Assembly (NCBI GenBank): GCA_900088475.1
Contig: FLMG01001402.1
Span: 1-41,030, forward strand
DNA from: Hyphochytrium catenoides
Lineage: Eukaryota > Sar > Hyphochytriomycetes > Hyphochytriales > Hyphochytriaceae
Direction: 5' to 3'
Length of the DNA: 41,030 nt
Shown here: piece by piece, positions 24,801-37,788 of the stretch
Numbering within the stretch: the first letter of the stretch is position 1
Layout: every line of letters starts with the position of its first letter
Position numbers and translations under genes: made by a program
Notes under the pieces: model-generated
Told to the model about the DNA's origin: nothing
Database searches by the model: none
The model's input: only the letters and a program-made list of their open reading frames with translations

Positions 24801-25357
24801 TGATGGAGGTATTGGAGGAGGAGAAGTCCACTTGCCTGTTCTCTTCTCCCGCATCATAGACTTTCCCCTGACCCATCTCGGCCTCCTAGGTCACTCCCAA
24901 ATGTTAAAGAGGAGGTCTCGTCTTCGTCTTCTGTCACCGGTACTACTTGGCCCTCTATCCCTTACTACACCGACCCTCCTCGGCCCATGTCTTGGAGCAA
25001 GGTAAGGCCCTTATAGCTGCACTGCTGGGTCGAAGATTCACACCTCCTGCTAATATTTAGCTGGGAATAGCGGGGCATGGCTCAAACTTCTTGAAGACCA
25101 TTTGGGAGTAACCTTGTGGAGAAGTATCAATCAATGGGGTCTAGATAATTTCCGCAACTACAAAGTCTTATTCCTTCAACGACGTACTCGGTACTAGAGA
25201 CTGTTAGTCCCCTTAGACAGTCTGCATCTGTCAGCTCCATCAGGTCAATCCTTTAGCTCAGCCAGCTGCCCACGGTACGGCGGCGTAGGGTCTGACGTTC
25301 TTTCACCTATTAAAAGTTGAAGAGCATTAACAGGTGTTGCTGGAGAAGTCATCGACG
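21887..25357. other. Gene-poor region of 3.5 kb upstream of the receptor gene
   Basis: Open frames are short or compositionally biased: a CT-rich tract at about 22340-22480 gives Ser/Leu-only frames, a GA-rich tract lies at about 24160-24330, and 24459-24716 (minus) is Gly/Glu-rich. A 119-codon minus frame at 23479-23838 has normal composition but no recognisable domain. The last part should be the promoter and 5' UTR of the receptor gene. Confidence 0.4.
24160..24330. repeat. GA-rich purine tract
   Basis: The plus strand is nearly all A and G, with GAGAGA runs (for example around 24271-24283). A matching CT-rich tract lies near 22340-22480. Confidence 0.7.
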
Positions 25358-28300
25358 ATGGCGGGGCTAACATCGCGCCCTCTTGGCCGGTTTGCCTACG
25401 GTCTCTTGTTCGCAATAACTCTGATTATTGTCCCTTGTGTCTTCAAGGCAGCCCTGGCAGCCGACACAGCTGCTGTGCCCCCGTTGATCGATCCTGACCT
25501 CTTAAAAGTCCAGTATCCAGATCTTACGGTTGCATCAGGCGTCGGGAGCTCCAGTTCCATGGCCATGATGAGGGATCTGACCTTTATCTACAGAACAGCT
25601 AAGCCTGGAGTCTTCATCAACCATGTGACTGACAGGCAGCTTCGAAGCCCCAGCACGAGAAGTGAATACCTTAACGGAAATGTGGACTATCTGCTCTCCA
25701 TCACGCTGCTCTCCTCTTCAGATATGGCCAAGGTTAGTGACACGCAGAACTATCCTCTAGTCGTGTCCGGCCTGGTGCCGATGGTCAACCTTCCTGAGCT
25801 CGATGATAACGAGGACATCTGGCTGGACAGGAAAAATATGCTAGAAATCTTTAACGGCACCCTGTCAAAGTGGAACGACCCTTCTATCCTCCAAACCAAC
25901 TTGAAAAACCCCGCATACGCCAAAATCGCAGCGTTGAACAAGAAGATAGAGGTCATTGTACGAGCGGACTCCTCCTCGACCACCAATGTCTTTATCAGGA
26001 CACTAATCTCTTTTTCCAACAACACCTTGTCATTTGCGGACAGTGTCTCTCTGTCCAAGTTTCCAATGCCTGACTCCAACTACATCGATCCAGACACAGG
26101 CAAGACCCGTATCCGCCGGTATATCGAGACAGAAGCTTGTCTAGCAGCCCTTCAGACCACTCCTTATGGCATCTCGTACATGCTTTGGACTACCGCCACC
26201 GCCAGCACCTCTAAGGACACCTCAAGGCGTTACAGAGTGAAAGTGGTGCCTTTAATCAATAAGTTCGGTAACCTGGTCCGCCCCACGGTGGAGACCATAC
26301 AGTCAGCGATGGTGGAGAAGTCACAGGCTCTTCTCTCCCCAATCACGAAAGACGTGACTCTCTTCGATGGTGCCAGCCCTGAGTCTTGGCCCATTGCCTA
26401 TATCAACTACTTACTCATCAGGAAAGACTTCGTGCGACCAAAGACAAACTGCGATACCCGTGCCGCCACAGCTGAATTCTTCCATTGGTTCTACACCTCC
26501 TCCTCGGGCACACCAATCGCTGAAAGGTATAACTATCTGATGCTGCCAGAATCTGTGCGACTGAAGCTCGGAGGGTACGTGCAGCAGAATACACTGTGCT
26601 CTGGTGGGAAACCTGCATTTTTCTTTGGGATCAATGGTAAGGGCCCAGAAGAAGTTAACGCTGTACTGCCAGTCTACACAGCCATGTACTCTATCAAGGA
26701 TCCAGCTGCCGCGATTGGCCTTGTCGCTGGTTGGGATGGGGAGAGTGTGGATGCGCTCAGTCAAGTTGCCAATGGCCTAATTCCCTTTGCCGTGCTGCCC
26801 TCAAGCGAAGTCACCAGGGCTTCTGAATCACTGCCCGAAAATGAGAGGGAGCTACTAACTTCAGGACCCATCTTCCTTGCTTCACTGGGGGTTTTCTATA
26901 ACCATCCGGACTTTGATGGGACTAACGAGACGTCTCTTCTTACACTTTCCATGGACACCTTGGCTGGCATACTCTCGGGGTCGATCACGAAGTGGAATGA
27001 TATATCGCTGAGGCGTCTAAACTCTAATGAAGCGGGAGACAAGTTGTCCAAAGCGGAAACGATCAAGATTATTCTCTACGACTCACCCGTGAGATGGGAA
27101 TACACCGCACTCTATCATGCCCTTGCCCGATTCCCAAGCGTCCAAGCTAAGATTTTCCAGCAGTCAACCCTACCCGGAGGGGCACCAAGTCTTCATCTTC
27201 CATCCGAGGTGGAGGCTTACACAGCCGCGTCAGATTCGAACACCCTAGAGTCGCTAATTCTTCAGAACCCTTACTCCATTGGTCTCAAGTTCAGAGTCGC
27301 CAAGCGGGATCCTTTCGTCCCTATAGCCCGGATGATCAGCTCTTCTAGCTCTGTTATCTCGTCCGCGTCCAGCTTGAAGGCTCTCGTGGGAAGCCCATCG
27401 CAGTTAATGGCCTGTGGCCACGACATTCGCATGCCTGTTGAGAAGCCAGCTTCTTTGCTCCACGATGTTAATCTTTCCAGGATTGTGTCCCCCTTCTCCG
27501 CCAGCAATGAGACAGACTGTTGGCCCTTAACTGACAGCTTGTCAGTGGTTCTCAGACGCCAATACGCCGCCGCAACTTGTAGGTCTGTCGCCCATCCGCT
27601 CTTAGGCTTCTGGGGCTGGTATACTGATCCTTCTACTTCGGGAGAAGTGTTTGAGCGCTACGGTCTGTCCTCTCTTTCTGAGGATGTGAAAGCGTACACG
27701 AGGGAGATAATCCTCAGGTCCATCACCTGCGCTAACTCTCCAAACGTCATCTTGAACACGGGTACCTGCATCCCAGCCCATATCAAGGCAAGCGTGGCGC
27801 CGCAGTGTGTACAAGACGGCCCGGTGACCGTCCCTGTACACTTTGAATGGATTGAACCTAAGACTTGTGATGGCGGGCAAACCCTACTCCCGGACCACTC
27901 CATTTGGTGCGACTATTTACCAGGGGGATCAGATTGGGGCCTGGCAATGAAAGCCCACCTCGGTATCTCCCTGAGCTTTGGCGTTGCGCTCGCCACGAGT
28001 GTTATCTTCCTCCGCCATCATCCAGCCATCTTGCTCGCCAACTATACCCTTATGCTTACAATCCTTACCTTCGGCACCCTAAGAATGCTTGCGAGTATCG
28101 GCGTCCTCCTTCGTCCAACGAACCTTAGCTGCGGCTTCTCTTCTTGGCTGGATGACCTGTTTCTCAATGGACTCCTAGACCTTCTCATCGTGCCGACAAT
28201 GTTACAGTGGATTGGTTTCCGAAGCGGAAGATCTGTTCCTCGGGGCCAAGCGATTGTACTTGCTGCTCTGATACCTCTTGGTCTGTTTCTGATAATAACC

Positions 28301-29365
28301 ACCGCCCTAGTAGCGACGAGATCTCCCAGGATAAGGTCTGATCGCGCAGTGACGGTGATGCGTGACTGGACTGCCATGGTGCCGTACTGCGAGCCTACAA
28401 CCGGCTACGGGCTCTACGTGAGCACCTGGACCATCCTAACAGCCACCGTTGGAATTGTAGGCAGTTTCTACTCCTGGAGAGACCAAAAGCACATTCCAAA
28501 TGGGCGCATATCCATTGTCGCACTTTTGATCCTCTTCTCCTTTGAGATAGCGAAGAGAGCGGTGCAAAATAGTGTTGGGAAGCTTGGCGACGCCGCTGTG
28601 GTTCCGGAAGCTGTGGGAGCTCATCTTTTGCTTCTCGGTACCTCCCTCTGTCTATTTACGTTAGTCGCTCCAAAGCTCTACACAGCGCTCACGGTATCCA
28701 AGAGTGAGCGACGGTTCCAAGCGCTGTAAGTCTCCGAAAGCTTTTGCTGCATCTTCTCTTCCATTATCATCTATTATCATTTCTTTATTACAGAGGCTAG
28801 CCTTCGTCGCTCTCCCTACTTATTTATCGCTCTCTCCTCTATGCCCCATCGACTAACCAGACACTCTCTCTTCTTATACGTCTGTTTATGCAGAGACACC
28901 TCATCTTTGACGAAGATAAACTCCACGGAAGCTCTCCTCAACGCACTTCACGGAAATAGCATGGTTCGGTCCAAGTTCCGTGACTACCTCCAGGCCGAGC
29001 ACGCTGAGGAGAATCTGATGTTCTTGGAGATGGCAGATCGTCTAGAAGAAACGTCTGATCCTAGGAGGCGACTCACTTTATTCCAAGATATCCTCGATGA
29101 GTATATCCGACTGGGATCTCCATACGAAGTAAATGTCTCGGATGCTCTGCGAAAGGAACTTATGATGTTCGAAGAAGCAACCTCTGTGGATTCGAAGGTG
29201 CTTAGTGCCACGAAGCAGCAAGTTCTCAGACTTCTGCTAGATTCGTTCATGAGATTCAGCAGAGCTGAGGCACTAGCTTCAATGTCAGCAAGAAGGAAGA
29301 CCCTCTCGAGCTCCCAGGTGGCAGCATTGATGCAGGAGATTGGAGGGGACAAGAAGAAGCCTTAA
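25358..29365 (+). CDS. PstS-like / class C GPCR / RGS fusion receptor
   Basis: Exons 25358-28725 and 28894-29365 (phase 2 intron); 1279 residues. Signal peptide 1-35. Residues about 50-405 match PstS-type phosphate-binding proteins: GVGSSSSMAMM near 61-71, IFNGTLSKWNDPSI (164-177), VRADSSSTTNVF (201-212; compare RADGSGTSxVF), WPIAYINYLLIRKD (344-357), RYNYLMLPESV. Residues about 420-760 repeat the fold (ILSGSITKWNDISL) without the binding motif. A Cys-rich stretch leads to seven hydrophobic helices (about 863-1111). Class C GPCR marks include HHPAILLANYTLMLTILTFG, a Cys before helix 3, and APKLY in helix 7. Residues 1135-1255 are an RGS domain with EEN (1161-1163) and EVN, the residues that contact G-alpha in RGS4. 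Predicted role: ligand-sensing GPCR with built-in GAP activity. The ligand is inferred. Confidence 0.9.
28726..28893 (+). other. Intron separating the 7TM and RGS parts of the receptor
   Basis: 168 nt, GTAAGT donor and TTTATGCAG acceptor. The first bases complete an in-frame CTG TAA, so an unspliced transcript stops one codon after the 7TM part and gives a receptor without RGS. Splicing restores the frame into RGS. Confidence 0.8.
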
Positions 29366-31520
29366 GAAGGAGCTGTTGCATAAGAGTAGCTGTTGCATGT
29401 TAACACTAATCGATATACTACTATACATATTTCCTAGACGCGGTGTGCCCATACACTTAGCATTGACGGTCGCGGCTTATAGATGGTACAATGATATGGT
29501 TCAGACCACGTCCACACTCGCGATCAAGTTGGCCTGATCGACTCTAGAAGAGCTGTTCCTGACTCAGTGATGACGACAGCTGATGTAGAGCCGCTGCGCA
29601 GCGACGCATCGATGCAGAGTGCTTTCCAGTGCGGTTGACTGTTTACTTTCAGTTCGTTGAGATAGCTCTGCGATGACGCCGGAGACTCAAGTGTTTATGG
29701 ATTAGTGCTGAAGAAGAATTTGTACATCATGTGGCACACTTGCGCTATGTGAGATAAAGTTGTTATATCTCGAGTTTGGAACATGATGACCGGACTTGTT
29801 TCTGATGTCAGGGCGCAGGAGTTACATTCTGACTGTCGTCAGGCGACGGAAGTCAAGGCGCTGCGGACGCATATCGACAAGGAAGTGCAAAGATTCAAGG
29901 GGAAAAGCAGCGGGAGCGGAGAAGAGGGAGGCAAGGCTGAGGTACCACGGATCTCTCCCTTGATCTCTTTTCTAATACTCCGGAGTAATAGTTCTAATGT
30001 GTGTGATTGTAAGGATGGCCGGCGGCCAAGAGATGATGCCGCTTGAGGAAGAGGAGGAAGGGGAATGCTTTCCCGTCCCTGATCCTGTCGATCCTGCTAT
30101 CATCACCTCGAAAGGCCCCACTTCAACATCCACCAACTGACCTACACTTTTCCATCACCAGCCATACCTACCCTAGTCGGTCGCACTGACCGCCCGTGCT
30201 ACGGGCTCCTAATAAGAGAAACATGATCATAGATCCTGACACCGGCTATTCTCCGTCTTTCTTACCATTGAAGATGGATCTTTGGGCTATTCCCTCTGTA
30301 GACCTGAGGAGGAGGAAACATCGTGCCTGACCAGCAGAGGTGGCTGCTTCTCCTTTTCCCTTCCTTCGGTTGCTGACGTGCTGGGGCCGCAGCGCTGGCG
30401 TGCCAGGGCCTCGATCTGGCGTCAGTGACCCCTCGGCCATCTGAGAAATAGGCAGAAAATAAGGACCAGCGAAACCTTTGTGGGGAATCCTTCATAGAAT
30501 ACTTTCAAGATAGGCAGCAGTTAACATTTGCCATTAATTTCGCTTGCAATAATCTCATTCTTTCACAGGAAAAATGCACGGTACAATCAGCTCATCTCGC
30601 TCACCTATGCGAATAGAATAGGTAGGCGTTTGCCTTATAACTGCTAGAGGAGGTTCCCAGCCTTCCAGTGATAGACATAAATCAATAGTCAGGACTATGG
30701 GGTAGTTCTTAAACGAATAAATACAGACGACGCGAAAGATCGTCTTTATGTTGGGGCTGTTTCCTTGTTGAAAGGATTTGGTCGGTCTATTCTTGGGGTC
30801 TTGGTTCTATTTTTAGAGGTTCGTGTTAGCTGACAAGTAAGAGCTACGGTGAGATAGAACTAATTGGTATCCAAAGCATGGGATCCCTACGAGACAGAGT
30901 AGGTTAAGAGGCACGTTATCGAGTCTAAAGATTTAGGAAAAGACAGAGGTGGTTGTCCCTGTCGTCTAAAGTCCTTTTGCTGAAGGATAGGCTAGGCATA
31001 AGAAAGGAAGTAGAAGCAGTAGCCAAAAGGTGGCTGAGGAGTCAAGGAGCAGCAGTAGCCTGGATCAGAGAGGAGATGACCAGCCATCAGCCATCATCTA
31101 AGGGAGGTCTAATAATGTATATACACTTTTGACGGGCAGGACCTAAGAGAAAGGTAACAAGTGGACAGGTAGCTCTAGAGAGAGAGAGAGAGACAAGTGC
31201 TGCAAGCAGGAGAAGGGGATGAGTGATGTTTCGTAAGAGAATAGATCGACAGAGATGATTAGCTGTGAGAAGAGAGAGGTGTGGCAGAGAGAGGAACATT
31301 AATTAGCTACCAATGGATTAAAGGTGAGATGACGAGATGCGAGGCTCTCAAGATACCGCAAGCTGTTCTCCCCATCGCCATACGCTTCCACTAGCCCGAG
31401 ATATCTCGATAGGCAGCATTCTCCGTTTTCCTCGACCATCCACACCACGAGGATCACGCGGCAAAGATATACTCCATAGCGATAGAAGGCGATCTCAAAC
31501 ACTGTCGCCGAGAATCGAAC
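29366..31520. other. Gene-poor region of 2.2 kb
   Basis: No convincing gene. A 29783-30046 plus frame begins with a short charged helical stretch (KALRTHIDKEVQRFKGK) and has a possible donor, but downstream joins give only a few residues. A (GA)n run lies near 31177-31193. The last few hundred bases should hold the promoter of the expansin-like gene. Confidence 0.4.
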
Positions 31521-33098
31521 ATGAAGATGAGCAAAGCAATGTTGAGAGCACTGCAAGTGTTAGCGATATTCGCGGCCCTCACTAAAGATGGCGTCAGTGC
31601 AGATTGTCGGCTTACAGCTCCAAGCACAGCTAAGGCGACATATCATTCATACAGCAAGACTGATCCCGACACTACGACTGCTTGTCAACTTCAGTTCCCG
31701 CAAGGTCCAGGACCGCTGATGGTTACGGCAGTCGATGCCACTCTTTTCAAAAGAGGCTTGTCTTGCGGTGATTGCTTGAAAGTGACCAACACACTGCCCG
31801 GAGGCTCCTCAGCCATCGTACAAGTAGTTGATCTTAAGGGAGCAGCAGGACTAGATATGTCGCCGGACTCTTTCAGGGCCATCGCGGGCGCCTCCAACCT
31901 CATTGACTTGGGCTCTGCTGATGTTACATTCTACAAAGTCCCTTGCACTTCCCTGCTGAGCTCACCCAACATCAAGTACAGGTTCAAGGCAGGAAGTGAT
32001 GGAAATCCTTACCTTGGATTCATGGTAGTTGACCATTTAGTACCCATGAAGAGCGTAGCGATCGCACCTAGCAAAGATGGACCCTTCACTTCTTGTTCTA
32101 TGGATGCCAACAATTGGTGGATTTGCTCCAACCATGCAAAACTCAACATTGGAGGTTACGGACCTATCTTTCACGTCAAAATGGAGTCAACCGAGAACAC
32201 TGTTATCTACGATGCCATTCATGAGCTGGACGGGTCCAATGAGGCTCGTGTTTTCTCTTCTAGCGTCCAATTTCCTTCACCATCCAACTGTGGGGGTACC
32301 AAAGCTGAATACTCTCCTAGGGCAGTTCCTACACCGTCGCCGTCAAGCAAGCCAATACCTACCCAAGCAGCTCCAACAACTAATTCTACTTCGCGTTCGC
32401 ATAGAGACACTGACCACGACCTGGACAAACACGGGTCTGACGGTATGAAGAATGACAAATCTAGCTTGGAAATCAAAGAGAGAAACTCAACAGAAAGCTC
32501 TACCGCTGTTACTTCTACCGGAGAAAATAAGCCTTGTCTGGCCACTGGAGCCCTTGCTGGCAATAAAGACGCCGATGCATGGTGTGCCACAGTGGCTGGT
32601 GATGCTAGCGCCACAGCTTGCACCTGTGGTTCGGTACAAACAACGGAGAGTGCCGCCTCAGAGGTGACATGTACTGCCCTAAATGAATATTCCGACCAGG
32701 CCAGTGGATGGTGTAAACTGCAGTGCAGCACTGGTCTCTGTCCCCAGGATCTTTGCCGTTGCGAGACAGAACAGTCGTCACTGACGTCAGATGTCATGGG
32801 ATCAGAGGACGACGGGAGGAACAGTGATAAGCTAGAAAACTCGAACTCAAACGCAGCGACAAAGGCAGCTGATGGATCCTCTTCCGGTATTCCCACAGGA
32901 GGCATAGTAGTCATTGTCGTTGTTGCTGTGGGCATGGTTGTCGTTGCTGGGGCGCTGGCGGTCAGCCGCTTCCGAAAGCGCAACGAAGAGAGTGACGACG
33001 ACGCCCCAGATGTTTGTCAAGTGACCCCAACGGCTGGTGAGTTTCAAGGCCAATACGCCCGCTACCCTTCCCTAGACCACGCTTCTTATAGTATCTAG
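31521..33098 (+). CDS. Membrane-anchored expansin-like protein with Cys-rich module
   Basis: Single exon, 525 residues. Signal peptide 1-27 (ends GVSA). Residues about 28-135 are a double-psi beta-barrel like expansin domain 1: ACQLQFPQG, SCGDCLKVTN, and GLDMSPDSFRAIAG, which corresponds to the DLS/Asp motif of expansins. Residues about 145-255 fit the second, cellulose-binding-like beta-sandwich (YLGFMVVDH, NNWWICSNH with exposed aromatic residues). A Pro/Thr/Ser linker follows, then a Cys-rich module (about 337-416; GWCKLQCSTGLCPQDLCRC), then one transmembrane helix (about 459-482), basic stop-transfer RFRKR and a 40-residue acidic, Tyr-containing cytoplasmic tail. Expansins loosen wall polysaccharides without hydrolysis. 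Most are secreted; the anchor is unusual. A possible AATAAA lies at 33253-33258. Confidence 0.88.
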   Translation: MKMSKAMLRALQVLAIFAALTKDGVSADCRLTAPSTAKATYHSYSKTDPDTTTACQLQFPQGPGPLMVTAVDATLFKRGLSCGDCLKVTNTLPGGSSAIVQVVDLKGAAGLDMSPDSFRAIAGASNLIDLGSADVTFYKVPCTSLLSSPNIKYRFKAGSDGNPYLGFMVVDHLVPMKSVAIAPSKDGPFTSCSMDANNWWICSNHAKLNIGGYGPIFHVKMESTENTVIYDAIHELDGSNEARVFSSSVQFPSPSNCGGTKAEYSPRAVPTPSPSSKPIPTQAAPTTNSTSRSHRDTDHDLDKHGSDGMKNDKSSLEIKERNSTESSTAVTSTGENKPCLATGALAGNKDADAWCATVAGDASATACTCGSVQTTESAASEVTCTALNEYSDQASGWCKLQCSTGLCPQDLCRCETEQSSLTSDVMGSEDDGRNSDKLENSNSNAATKAADGSSSGIPTGGIVVIVVVAVGMVVVAGALAVSRFRKRNEESDDDAPDVCQVTPTAGEFQGQYARYPSLDHASYSI

Positions 33099-34056
33099 AG
33101 TCGCCAATGTAGCACCCAATCGCCACCCCTACGCCGGAGGCGCTTCTTCTATTTATTGCTTTATGCTAAGGCACACAGCACAGGTTAATAATAATAGATC
33201 GGGTCTACAGTCCCACACACATAATGACTCAATCTTAGATAGCAGCATACGCAATAAATAAGAACTTTGCCTGCACTCTATTGCTAGTCTTCTTGAGGCT
33301 GTCCGCTTCTCATTGTGCCACTGGCAAAGTTGTTCACTGCCGGAGCGGCGGCGCTTATCCGTTTCTGATCTTTCTTGGCGTTAGCGGTCATTTGCGGGAG
33401 GAAGGGCTTTGTGTTTGTATCCGAGGAGGTCCAGAGTTTGCCGTTGCTGTTGTTGTTACGGTTACAGAGACACCTCAGATCGCTAGACAGAGTCAGCAAT
33501 CTTTATAGTTATAATAGCAAAGGGCGGTCACAATAGAGGAATCAGAGACCAGGATACGACGCTGAACACCACAGAGAAAAATCCACTTCGTCTAGCCAAT
33601 TCTTTGCCTTCGTACTGTACAAGTACCTGCGAAGGAACCAGAAGGCCGTCACGTCGTCACGACCTGTTTGTGCTGACAGAGAACAGAGAACTGATAGGAA
33701 CATTTTTAAGAGAGATTCGCCGGCAGAGTAGTGCTGAGAGATCTGCTGCTGAGAGATCTGCTGCTGCCGTTGCGCTCTTACATTGGAGGGACGGGGGTCC
33801 AAAGGAAGAAGAGACAAGGGAGAGCAAGGCTAGGTCACCATTTTCCCAGTGCCTGCCACTTTGCTGCCAGTATCTTGTCATTCTTACTTGTGCTGAAGCG
33901 TTGTGAAGACTTGGTACCCCTAACAGAAACGTTCTTCCCTTGAAGCAGTATATGTTCAGCTTCAGATTCAGAGATTGATGCTCTGCCGGGTATCCCTTGC
34001 TGATAGCGCTTGTTCATTCTCTCAGATCTTACTTGCTTCTCAACCATCGTCTGACA
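33099..34056. other. Intergenic region between expansin-like and channel genes
   Basis: About 960 bases with a possible polyadenylation signal (AATAAA, 33253-33258) and a 15-bp tandem duplication (33733-33762). Short open frames on both strands lack domain signals. It should hold the promoter of the channel gene. Confidence 0.4.
33733..33762. repeat. 15-bp tandem duplication
   Basis: GCTGAGAGATCTGCT occurs twice in direct, perfect tandem (33733-33747, 33748-33762). Confidence 0.9.
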
Positions 34057-35530
34057 ATGGCGAGCCTAGGGATGCAGGCTGCGGCCGAACTGATCGGTAC
34101 ATGGTGGATTCTTGCTGTAGGCAATTCCCTTATCGCCAACGAAGTTCTAGCCAGCACAAAGGGAAATAAGATGGGCTTTGGATTCATTGCTCTCTACTTT
34201 GGCTTAGCTTTCTTCTTGCCACTGATATGCTTCAGCGATGTTAGCGCCACATTCAATCCTGCCTCAGCGATCTTCAAGTGGGTACTAGGACGGATCTCAA
34301 CCTCTCAGTTCTTTGTCTTCTGTGCTATGGAGCTTGCCGGTGCATTCTTAGGAGGCGTCACCGCTTGGCTCTATCACATTGGCCACTTTAACCTGAAGCC
34401 TAAGCCACCCCTCAGCCCGCATTGGACTGATGCTTTTCTAAGACCAATGGAGAGACGAGAAGAGACTGCGGCCACGTACACTTCCTTTGCTGGTATACCG
34501 TTTCCGGAGAGATTGCGCTTTCGCAAGGCTACAAGCGCAGACGAGGAGTTACAACGCAATCGTGCAGCCACTAGCCCCAGGGCTCCAGGTTCCCAGGATC
34601 TGGATACAAGCGCTGTGGCCACGAACAGCAGGGCTGAGACAAAGAAGGTGCAATCCCTAGCGCAGGAGATCACAAAGCCAAAGCGCAAGTATGGGATGAC
34701 TGACAGTGACTTAATGGAAGGACTACATGACGCTTATGAGACGCTGTCGGCAGAGGACTGGGCCTACACAGCGAACGTCATTGCTGATCAGTCGTCCAAA
34801 CTTAGTGTCTTTGCAACGCGGCCAGCAATATTTAACTGGTGGCAGAACCTACTGACAGAGACACTGGGAACAATGCTACTGATCTGGGGTGCCTTCACTT
34901 TAGAAGATGTCGTCGAGCTACTTCCAGTGGAGTTCAGACCTCTCTACCTCAAAGCTATATTCCCATTCTACCTTTCCCTGTATGTCGTCGCTTGCGTTGG
35001 TGCCCTGGGCGGACCGACGGTAGGTGGTGCGGTCGCTGGCTTAAACAAGTGTACTTTTCCTCAAATTTGTTAAGATTTATAGTGCGAATGAAAGCGCAGC
35101 GTATTGCTCCGTTCGTGTCTCTTCAATCAACCTTTCTCCCCCCTTCTTAGCTTTCACTATTCTTTCAGATTAACCTGCTTTCCCTCTTGCAACATCAACT
35201 GATTAACTAACTCTCACCACTCTCCATGCTGCGTGCACCTGGACGTGTCACTCCACGCCTACTCTGTCCACAGGGCTATGCAGCCAACCCAGGTATGCTC
35301 AGTGGTGTACGGAATGCGGTCATCGCGGGGGTGCTAACTGACCTGCCTGTTTTGTCTTTTCAGCAAGAGATCTAGGTCCTAGGCTAGCTCATTGGATCTT
35401 GCCCATCCCCAACAAGGGCTCATCCGAGTGGCACTACGCGTGGATTCCTATCGTAGGACCATTTCTGGGAGGTCTACTAGCAGCTGCACTCTATGAAGGC
35501 ACTTCAAGGGTGATGCTGACGAATAAGTAG
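34057..35530 (+). CDS. Aquaglyceroporin-like channel (MIP family) with very long loop C
   Basis: Exons 34057-35031, 35274-35292, 35364-35530; 386 residues. Half 1 has helix [14 protein letters not shown], loop B with the first NPA ([11 protein letters not shown]67-P68-A69) and helix 3 ([20 protein letters not shown]). Half 2 starts at about 259 ([17 protein letters not shown]) and has [20 protein letters not shown] with the second NPA (N330-P331-A332) and the selectivity-filter Arg333. Asp after that Arg (NPARD) is typical of glycerol facilitators rather than pure water channels. Residues about 111-258 are a hydrophilic insert in loop C, about 150 residues where 20-30 is usual. The second NPA is built from a 19-nt microexon and split in its Ala codon. 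The start is ATG 34057, directly before helix 1. Confidence 0.9.
35274..35292 (+). other. 19-nt microexon carrying the second NPA motif
   Basis: Acceptor GTCCACAG and donor GTATGC flank the bases for Gly-Tyr-Ala-Ala-Asn-Pro plus the first base of Ala. The preceding donor (GTCGCT after 35031) is weak, but this join recreates the MIP consensus GGA-G-Y-x-x-NPARD-x-GP, which supports it strongly. Confidence 0.85.
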
Positions 35531-35734: not shown

Positions 35735-37788
35735 TCATACTCTAGTACCCTTGAGTCCGCGCTTGGGATAAGCTCTGGCCCTATCAGAACGAACGACACC
35801 AAGTTCGTCATCTTGTTGCAAGTCCAATTCATCATGACCAAGGTCAGCACCTACATCGGGGGGTGGGATCTCTAAAGCCAACAGCTCTTGGTCCGTGAAC
35901 CAAATGCCGCCAGAGTCCATAACGCTAGGGTTCTCAATGCGATGATACTGGAATACGCCGACTAGCTTAGAGGCTCTTTCGCTCTTCAGTAAATGACTCA
36001 CAGGAGTTCCGGTCACTGACTCCAAAAACCCAAAGGCCTGGGATCGCTTTTCTGATGATAGGGAATGCGATCGCGGCGAAGCTGAAGGCTTCATCGCCAT
36101 CAGCCTGTTCACCAGCTCCAAGAGCTTTCGAGGGGCATCTCCAGCAAAGGAATTCCACCACGCATTGGCATCAGTCTTTTCGGCGACATCCCAAAGAATT
36201 TCGCCTGCAAACCTGCCCGCGCGGCCCCTGAAGTTGATGACCTCCGCACAAATGTCCGCGGTCTCGCCCTCTGTGGCGTTATCTGCTGCAACTTGGTCCT
36301 TAAGGAACTTCAATGTCTCTGCATATTCTTCATTGGACAAAGCTGACCCTGCAAACCTAGGGTCGAGGAGGTATGCGAGCTGCATCACTGGGTGTCTGAT
36401 CCTTCCCCAGTATGAATTCAGCTTCTCGTGGATGAAGGCCTTAAGTTTGGGCGTGAAGTCTTTGCATGGCCCATCAGGACTAAAGTAATAGTTGAGCTCT
36501 GTGAAGACGTGGAATACTTGCGAAACCGATGCGGAATCAGACTGAAGGCTGATTATATGTTGGCCAAGGACCTCAAGGACCCGATTCTGCGAATCCACCA
36601 TGCTCCAGAACTCCTCGTCCATTGTAAGCGCTCGGATTTCATGTGGGAGAAGTCGGTTTTCATCAAGAAATGCTGATCCCGCAATGATACCGTCCCTGTT
36701 GCTCATTAGGGACTGGTACATCTGAGAATAGGAATGCCAGCTCGTCGTCATGGGCACGCTTGGTAGCGGAGTATCCTTGGTTCGGTCGGCGCGTTGGCGG
36801 AGAGTGGCCTTCGCTGCATCATTATCTCGGAAGAAGGAGGACACGCGTTTGGCTTTCTCAGCAGCGGTAGCGCAGTAGTCAGTCCCCAGAATGTCATCCT
36901 CGGTTAGGCGGATGAGGGCCGTAGAAGCGCAGCCATAGAAACTGATCCGCGGATATCGGGGTGCTAGGATCTTCCAAGCAGCCTTAATCTTGGGACCCAC
37001 GTCAGATACAACCGAGACAACTTTATGGCGTCCAACTTCTTCAATAATCTTGGCAATCCCTGCCGCTACCCCTTCTGCAGTTTGAAAATCTGGATTAGCT
37101 GCTATGGCTCTGTAAAATATTGGCTTAGGAGTCATGACCATAAAGTTAATGAGGCCTTCCTCGCCGTCGGCCGCCCTATATATCAAGGTAAGAAGAAGAG
37201 GCAAAATGTTAGCTAGAGGGAAGAAATGGGGAGGGACAGAGATGAGACTTACCAGGCGTCTGCTGTGACGGTCACCGCCTTCGCCTGAGAGATAAGGCTT
37301 GTAGTCTTTTCTCTGATAAATGCTGATTCCTTATCCAGCAATACGTCAGCTACCTGCTCCCGGCTTGGCACCGGAGCGTGAGGGTTGAGAGATTTTATCA
37401 TCTTAACAAACAATGGGTGCTCCACCACTGAGAAGGGAATGCCGGTTCCATATATCATACGCGCGATGGCAAGACTGACATCTTCACTGCCTCGCTTGTC
37501 TAACGCATAGCCCGCCTTGCGCTTGCCGCCTATTAGCTGCTTCGACTTACGATCATCGTCAAACTCACCGCTACCTGGCTTGCCATAGTTCATCTTCTTC
37601 TTGCTGAACTGCTCTTGCGCGACGGCTGAAGGTGCATTGGTGCAGACTCTCATGTGGTCCGCGGCTCGAGTAGCATTGGCGAGGAGCTCTTTCCCGCAAT
37701 AAAGGCAGATAGCTCTACCTTTCTTCCCATCCATTGGGGGAGCTTCCATCTTGTAGTGCTTCCAGACATCACTTGGCAACCGTGGCAT
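35735..37788 (-). CDS. hAT-superfamily transposase-like protein with BED zinc finger
   Basis: Exons 37788-37253 and 37175-35735 (phase 2 intron); 658 residues from the ATG just before the BED finger; the frame is open upstream, so an extra exon is possible. BED finger: SDVWKHY then C28-x2-C31...H45-x3-C49. The transposase core follows: VTADAW (D177, rejoined by the intron) and INFMVMTPK; VVSDVG (D237) fits the second acidic residue. The usual CxxH after it reads FYGCASTAL, so the conserved His is missing. Then HPVMQLAYLLDPRF (typical hAT) and a C-terminal dimerisation-like region starting WWNSFAG, with the usual SSxxSER motif poorly kept. There is no internal stop or frameshift. It is either an ageing element or a host-recruited gene. 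Confidence 0.85.

Follow-up and report, generated by a model that had tools for sequence, protein, structure and literature searches.

A predicted Hyphochytrium catenoides protein joining tandem PstS-type domains, a class C-like seven-helix bundle and an RGS domain

The locus and its gene model

The window, by which we mean the whole 41,030-nucleotide stretch of Hyphochytrium catenoides DNA analysed here (from an assembly of 42.5 Mb in 1,105 contigs), carries a two-exon gene on its forward strand. Exon 1 lies in an open frame at 25331–28729 (+) with its ATG at 25358, and a frame of this length (1,132 codons) has a chance of about 2.5e-24 if equal base use is assumed. The RGS frame occupies 28730–29365 (+). 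A 168-base phase-2 intron at 28726–28893 (+; GTAAGT...GCAG), of the GT-AG type with a consensus donor and acceptor and a CTAAC-like branch site, connects the two, and the spliced product runs unbroken over 1,279 residues with no inner stops, which confirms the two exons and coordinates of the original prediction. A paralog on contig C788 has the same layout, with tandem PstS-type domains and a seven-helix (7TM) bundle followed by a phase-2 intron and an RGS domain, and this shared intron phase argues for the splice. Judged by these gene models, the PstS-PstS-7TM-RGS architecture is not unique in its genome. Introns and a paralog family within the same assembly rule out bacterial contamination.

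Read differently, the locus would hold two adjacent genes: one, for a tandem-PstS 7TM receptor, would stop at 28729, and the other, for an RGS protein, would start from an in-frame ATG at 28841. The stop of exon 1 does lie within the donor site, and the RGS frame does have this upstream ATG, but only about 110 bases separate that stop from that ATG, the donor and acceptor match consensus, C788 repeats both layout and intron phase, and other RGS frames in the genome sit right behind hydrophobic segments. We regard two separate genes as very improbable.

The spliced protein begins with a putative signal peptide (residues 1–35; 25358–25462, +), recognizable as a hydrophobic stretch at 16–34 followed by AALAA. 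Pfam then finds PBP_like_2, a borderline 7tm_3 and, in exon 2 (28894–29365, +), an RGS domain at 28949–29263 (E 6.5e-13), and hydropathy at a threshold chosen in this analysis gives one signal-peptide stretch plus seven transmembrane segments. Together these matches confirm the proposed order of a periplasmic-binding-type ectodomain, a seven-helix bundle and an RGS domain, and the gene model predicts 7TM and RGS within one chain.

Three other frames lie downstream in the window. A Barwin/DPBB (expansin-like) protein at 31518–33098 (+) has weak matches and a C-terminal hydrophobic segment. The aquaporin-like MIP frame at 33979–35073 (+) matches Pfam in its first half only, with a long stretch separating that half from a second membrane part. 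A DUF659 frame at 35735–37330 (−) presumably derives from a hAT-like transposon.

The PstS-type ectodomain and its candidate ligand site

Domain 1 (residues 58–405; 25529–26572, +) matches PBP_like_2 over residues 59–315 (E 5e-17) and resembles PstS in fold and sequence over its whole length, bearing out the PstS-like fold predicted for residues 50–405. This type II fold rules out a type I flytrap for the domain. Its TIGR00975 equivalog score is 126.5 bits against a cut-off of 205, which makes it a relative and not an orthologue. A homology search that scored 7,998 candidates returned at least 70 matches of 205–401 residues, all carrying PF12849 and called PstS-like wherever named; no full-length homologue appeared at E ≤ 0.001 among the 8,000 top word-sharing candidates, drawn from a database that is possibly eukaryote-poor. 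E. coli PstS (1ixh/2abh) has the fold and several phosphate contacts in common with domain 1 but is a soluble, single-domain ABC-transporter component, unlike the window receptor. The calcium-sensing receptor has a type I flytrap, with a phosphate site different from the PstS type. It is a class C receptor that responds to phosphate, according to the available text of PMC8476121.

The original prediction of phosphate sensing can be weighed at the ligand site of domain 1. As the phosphate contacts of E. coli PstS we take T10, F11, S38, D56, R135, D137, S139, G140 and T141. At these nine positions, alignment gives S, S, S, I, R, D, S, S and T in the window protein and T, L, S, D, R, D, S, G and T in C788, which keeps eight of the nine. 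The phosphate-loop equivalent, R202-A-D204-S-S206-S207-T208 (25961–25981, +), corresponds to PstS through R202 (R135), D204 (D137), S206 (S139) and T208 (T141), with S207 replacing G140; Ser-Ser stands in place of Thr10-Phe11, and Ile115 (25700–25702, +) takes the place of Asp56. Phosphate sensing thus appears plausible from the retained loop residues but is weakened in this protein by the changes from Asp56 to Ile and Gly140 to Ser.

The ectodomain may instead bind another ligand (sulfate, phosphonate or a phospho-organic molecule) or none, with the PstS fold serving only as a scaffold. The substitutions at D56, G140 and T10-F11 speak for such a reading, as does the partial or complete loss of the loop in six non-fused paralogs assessed, while the four conserved loop residues and the near-complete site of C788 speak against it; we consider it unlikely.

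Those six paralogs are tandem PstS-7TM genes. Three lie on contigs C604, C858 and C995, on which there are no RGS matches, and three lie on C896, where the nearest RGS match is about 20 kb away. At the last five contact positions, alignment gives R D D P V in C604, P V L A V in C858, P I L G V, P L L G V and P G P K S in C896a, C896b and C896c, and R D S Q C in C995, which lacks only the Thr. The R-x-D-x-S-x-T loop is complete in both RGS-fused receptors and in none of the six non-fused ones, a pattern of small, phylogenetically linked counts from which the first domain of a gene on C183 was left out. That gene looks by eye like a tandem-PstS class C-like receptor, with a separate RGS match close by on the opposite strand.

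The original prediction identified domain 1 correctly but missed what follows it. Residues ~430–795 (26645–27742, +) form a second, degenerate PstS-type domain that lacks the phosphate loop, its fold assigned with a biased alignment and with matches that spanned only model residues 1–373. NCBIfam gave no match for the C788 exon that carries the remainder of domain 2 together with the 7TM. By alignment, a Cys-rich linker (27728–27910, +) comes next and is common to the genome's non-RGS class C paralogs.

The seven-helix bundle, the RGS domain and the paralog trees

The seven hydrophobic segments form a predicted seven-helix domain with divergent, borderline 7tm_3 similarity (27941–28675, +). 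Pfam places 7tm_3 at residues 862–1106 with an E of 5e-8 and 33.3 bits, just below the 33.5 cut-off, and the bundle reaches 37.6 bits, above that cut-off, in a genome-wide search. By itself, the window bundle fails to match a profile built from ten of the genome's non-fused class C bundles (2.8% by hhalign; E 0.18 by hmmsearch); the C788 bundle gives 0.8% against the same profile, and the two fused bundles match each other weakly (10.9%). A profile of the fused pair matches the class C profile at 77.8% (E 1.9e-5, 242 columns), and a profile for the genome's other candidate 7TM-RGS bundles, made from 16 or 17 incomplete upstream pieces, gave 0.2% against the pair and 1.6% against class C. The 16 PDB sequences that matched at E ≤ 1 included no GPCR chain, and the modelled 7TM has low pLDDT. 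The type I flytrap expected of class C receptors is absent, a type II PstS fold standing in its place; given published fungal type II cases, the flytrap is not essential to the class.

The inner end of TM3 can carry a K-x-x-R motif, which matters for G-protein coupling. This motif is present in all ten aligned non-fused class C bundles and in neither fused one (window and C788), and because it is missing, a role as G-protein activator is doubtful. Of what the original term GPCR implies, the predicted seven-helix bundle is class C-like with a borderline 7tm_3 match, and the activating function comes into question. By analogy with a proposal for fungal class VI receptors, the protein might still be a true GPCR with a built-in brake, in which ligand activates G-alpha through the 7TM and the RGS domain shortens the signal. 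The Cys-rich linker and tandem ectodomain that it has in common with class C receptors of a more canonical type in this genome would fit, as would the 7tm_3 match and a PKLY motif at TM7; both fused bundles, however, lack K-x-x-R and are very divergent, and we judge this account to be improbable.

The RGS domain looks intact. AEEN, EVN and D-S-x-x-R are residues through which RGS domains contact G-alpha, and alignment finds all three in the window protein (the last as DSFMR), so that the predicted EEN and EVN contacts are present and a further one joins them. Its best match among solved structures is RGS5 (E 1.6e-5), and NCBIfam gave no match for the window RGS exon. C788 has P/T at the D163/S164 equivalents. 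The genome's best-matching G-alpha, on contig C746, has the switch-I RTTGI glycine; in Naegleria, as the available text of PMC9283941 reports, a switch-I Gly-to-Ser change abolishes the effect of the 7TM-RGS domain.

Profile searches of the genome returned 15 7tm_3, 9 PBP_like_2 and 44 RGS matches, as exon-level counts. They also gave 7 HSF matches and none for a chlorophyll-binding protein, a search that scored in 1 control genome; Fungal_trans matched neither here nor in any control genome, so that its silence does not argue for absence. Among 17 loci picked from 30 fetched (L009–L038) of the 44 RGS matches, inspection by eye shows at 15 a V-x-E/D-A-F-like motif in common, set within hydrophobic segments immediately upstream of RGS. 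This large RGS expansion suggests an extensive 7TM-RGS family comparable to the one in Naegleria. At L038 (C632), an RGS match is followed by a kinase-like start, resembling by eye a GRK or an AGC kinase with RGS. L041, L042 and L043 (C633, C594 and C913) are class C receptors whose ectodomains appear by eye to be repeated type I binding domains; both flytrap types may have been duplicated within one genome.

The window and C788 RGS domains are sisters (UFBoot 98) in a tree of 18 of the 30 fetched loci, from which partial, interrupted and two odd ones were dropped. For domain 1, a tree with 17 of the at least 70 bacterial-type matches plus E. coli, but without C896b, unites the seven eukaryotic domains in a single clade (99) within bacterial PstS; the window domain branches first (85), and the placement of C788 has a support of only 38. 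The two fused receptors pair neither in this tree nor in that of domain 2, where supports are low (39–83). An unrooted 7TM tree of 12 sequences places all non-fused bundles in one group (99). These trees would be consistent with a single capture of a bacterial PstS, and they would permit RGS fusion as the older state.

Known systems and a proposed mechanism

Two premises of the original prediction do not hold. Class C receptors were said to capture ligand by a type I fold, yet type II binding domains are published for about half of the class C receptors of gut fungi (PMC5168858, in its available text), and S. punctatus SPPG_06488 is described as a class C receptor with PBP_like_2 (PMC3251606, likewise). 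Known 7TM-RGS proteins were said to lack such an ectodomain, yet the available text of PMC9283941 describes 28 7TM-RGS proteins in Naegleria fowleri, several with large EGF-like or lectin ectodomains. Elsewhere, the accessible accounts report seven diatom receptors with PBP1-type domains and with C-termini unlike any known protein (PMC3727952) and an RGS domain in fungal class VI receptors (PMC10794492). The original prediction knew of no described protein with this order, and PstS-PstS-7TM-RGS has no record among the top full-text literature matches, with subscription journals mostly outside. The window protein is a new combination of parts, a variant rather than a new kind.

AtRGS1-type proteins of plants and Naegleria likewise place a 7TM before a cytoplasmic RGS domain, but the available text of PMC9283941 describes no periplasmic-binding ectodomain for them, and the 7TM of the window protein resembles class C. 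Fungal class C receptors, SPPG_06488 and those of gut fungi, likewise carry a type II ectodomain on 7tm_3, in SPPG_06488 from the same Pfam family; unlike the window protein, they are not mentioned as having RGS in the available text of PMC3251606 or the main text of PMC5168858. The gut-fungal binding domains resemble sugar-binding proteins, where the window ectodomain is PstS-type (PMC5168858, available text). GPR158 and GPR179, acting with RGS7-Gbeta5, are also class C with G-alpha deactivation via RGS as their output, but there the RGS is a separate protein and the GPR158 ectodomain has a PAS domain (PMC8611064, available text).

We propose, with about an even chance of being right, that the window protein is a ligand-regulated RGS with a paired PstS-type ectodomain, a reading that we favour because an outer sensor and an intact-looking inner RGS domain flank a bundle without the class C motif. 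Two extracellular PstS-type clamshells would top the divergent, class C-like bundle of seven helices. Domain 1 would probably close on phosphate or a related oxyanion, its candidate ligands, and domain 2, its loop lost, would play a structural part or act as dimer partner. Clamshell movement would travel through the Cys-rich linker and the 7TM to the RGS domain and alter RGS-stimulated GTP hydrolysis on the cell's G-alpha, where we infer both the direction of control and the GAP activity. AtRGS1 is thought to act in this way for sugars. Both halves of this logic exist in nature, as shown by AtRGS1 (PMC3386157) and GPR158-RGS7 (PMC8611064), each in its available text.

Computation gives the domain order, the domain 1 fold, the site and RGS contact residues and the same-layout paralog, and likewise, with a biased alignment, the domain 2 fold. 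At the level of sequence, a ligand-regulated RGS would be favoured by the PstS identity, the second domain, the C788 order and sister RGS, the retained RGS contacts, the contrasting loop (2/2 fused against 0/6 non-fused) and K-x-x-R (0/2 against 10/10) patterns, the RTTGI glycine of the best-matching G-alpha and the upstream hydrophobic motif at 15 of 17 picked RGS loci. Against it stand the altered Asp56, Gly140 and Thr10-Phe11 positions, the P/T residues of the C788 RGS, the borderline 7tm_3, the 2.8% and 10.9% bundle matches and PBP trees without a window-C788 pairing. Only tentatively do we extend the ligand-regulated RGS to a eukaryotic phosphate receptor, in which a captured PstS, duplicated and fused to a 7TM-RGS, would have become a ligand-gated GAP reporting external phosphate.

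To our knowledge, direct sensing of external phosphate by eukaryotic cells is poorly known, and for most 7TM-RGS proteins no ligand is known. The window protein offers a sharp and testable ligand hypothesis, and since its sensor comes from a bacterial family of well-understood structure, purified parts would allow separate tests of ligand binding and of RGS output. The paralogs differ in having or lacking RGS and in having or lacking the phosphate loop, and as a series they would provide a natural experiment in the interconversion of class C-like receptors and ligand-gated RGS proteins.
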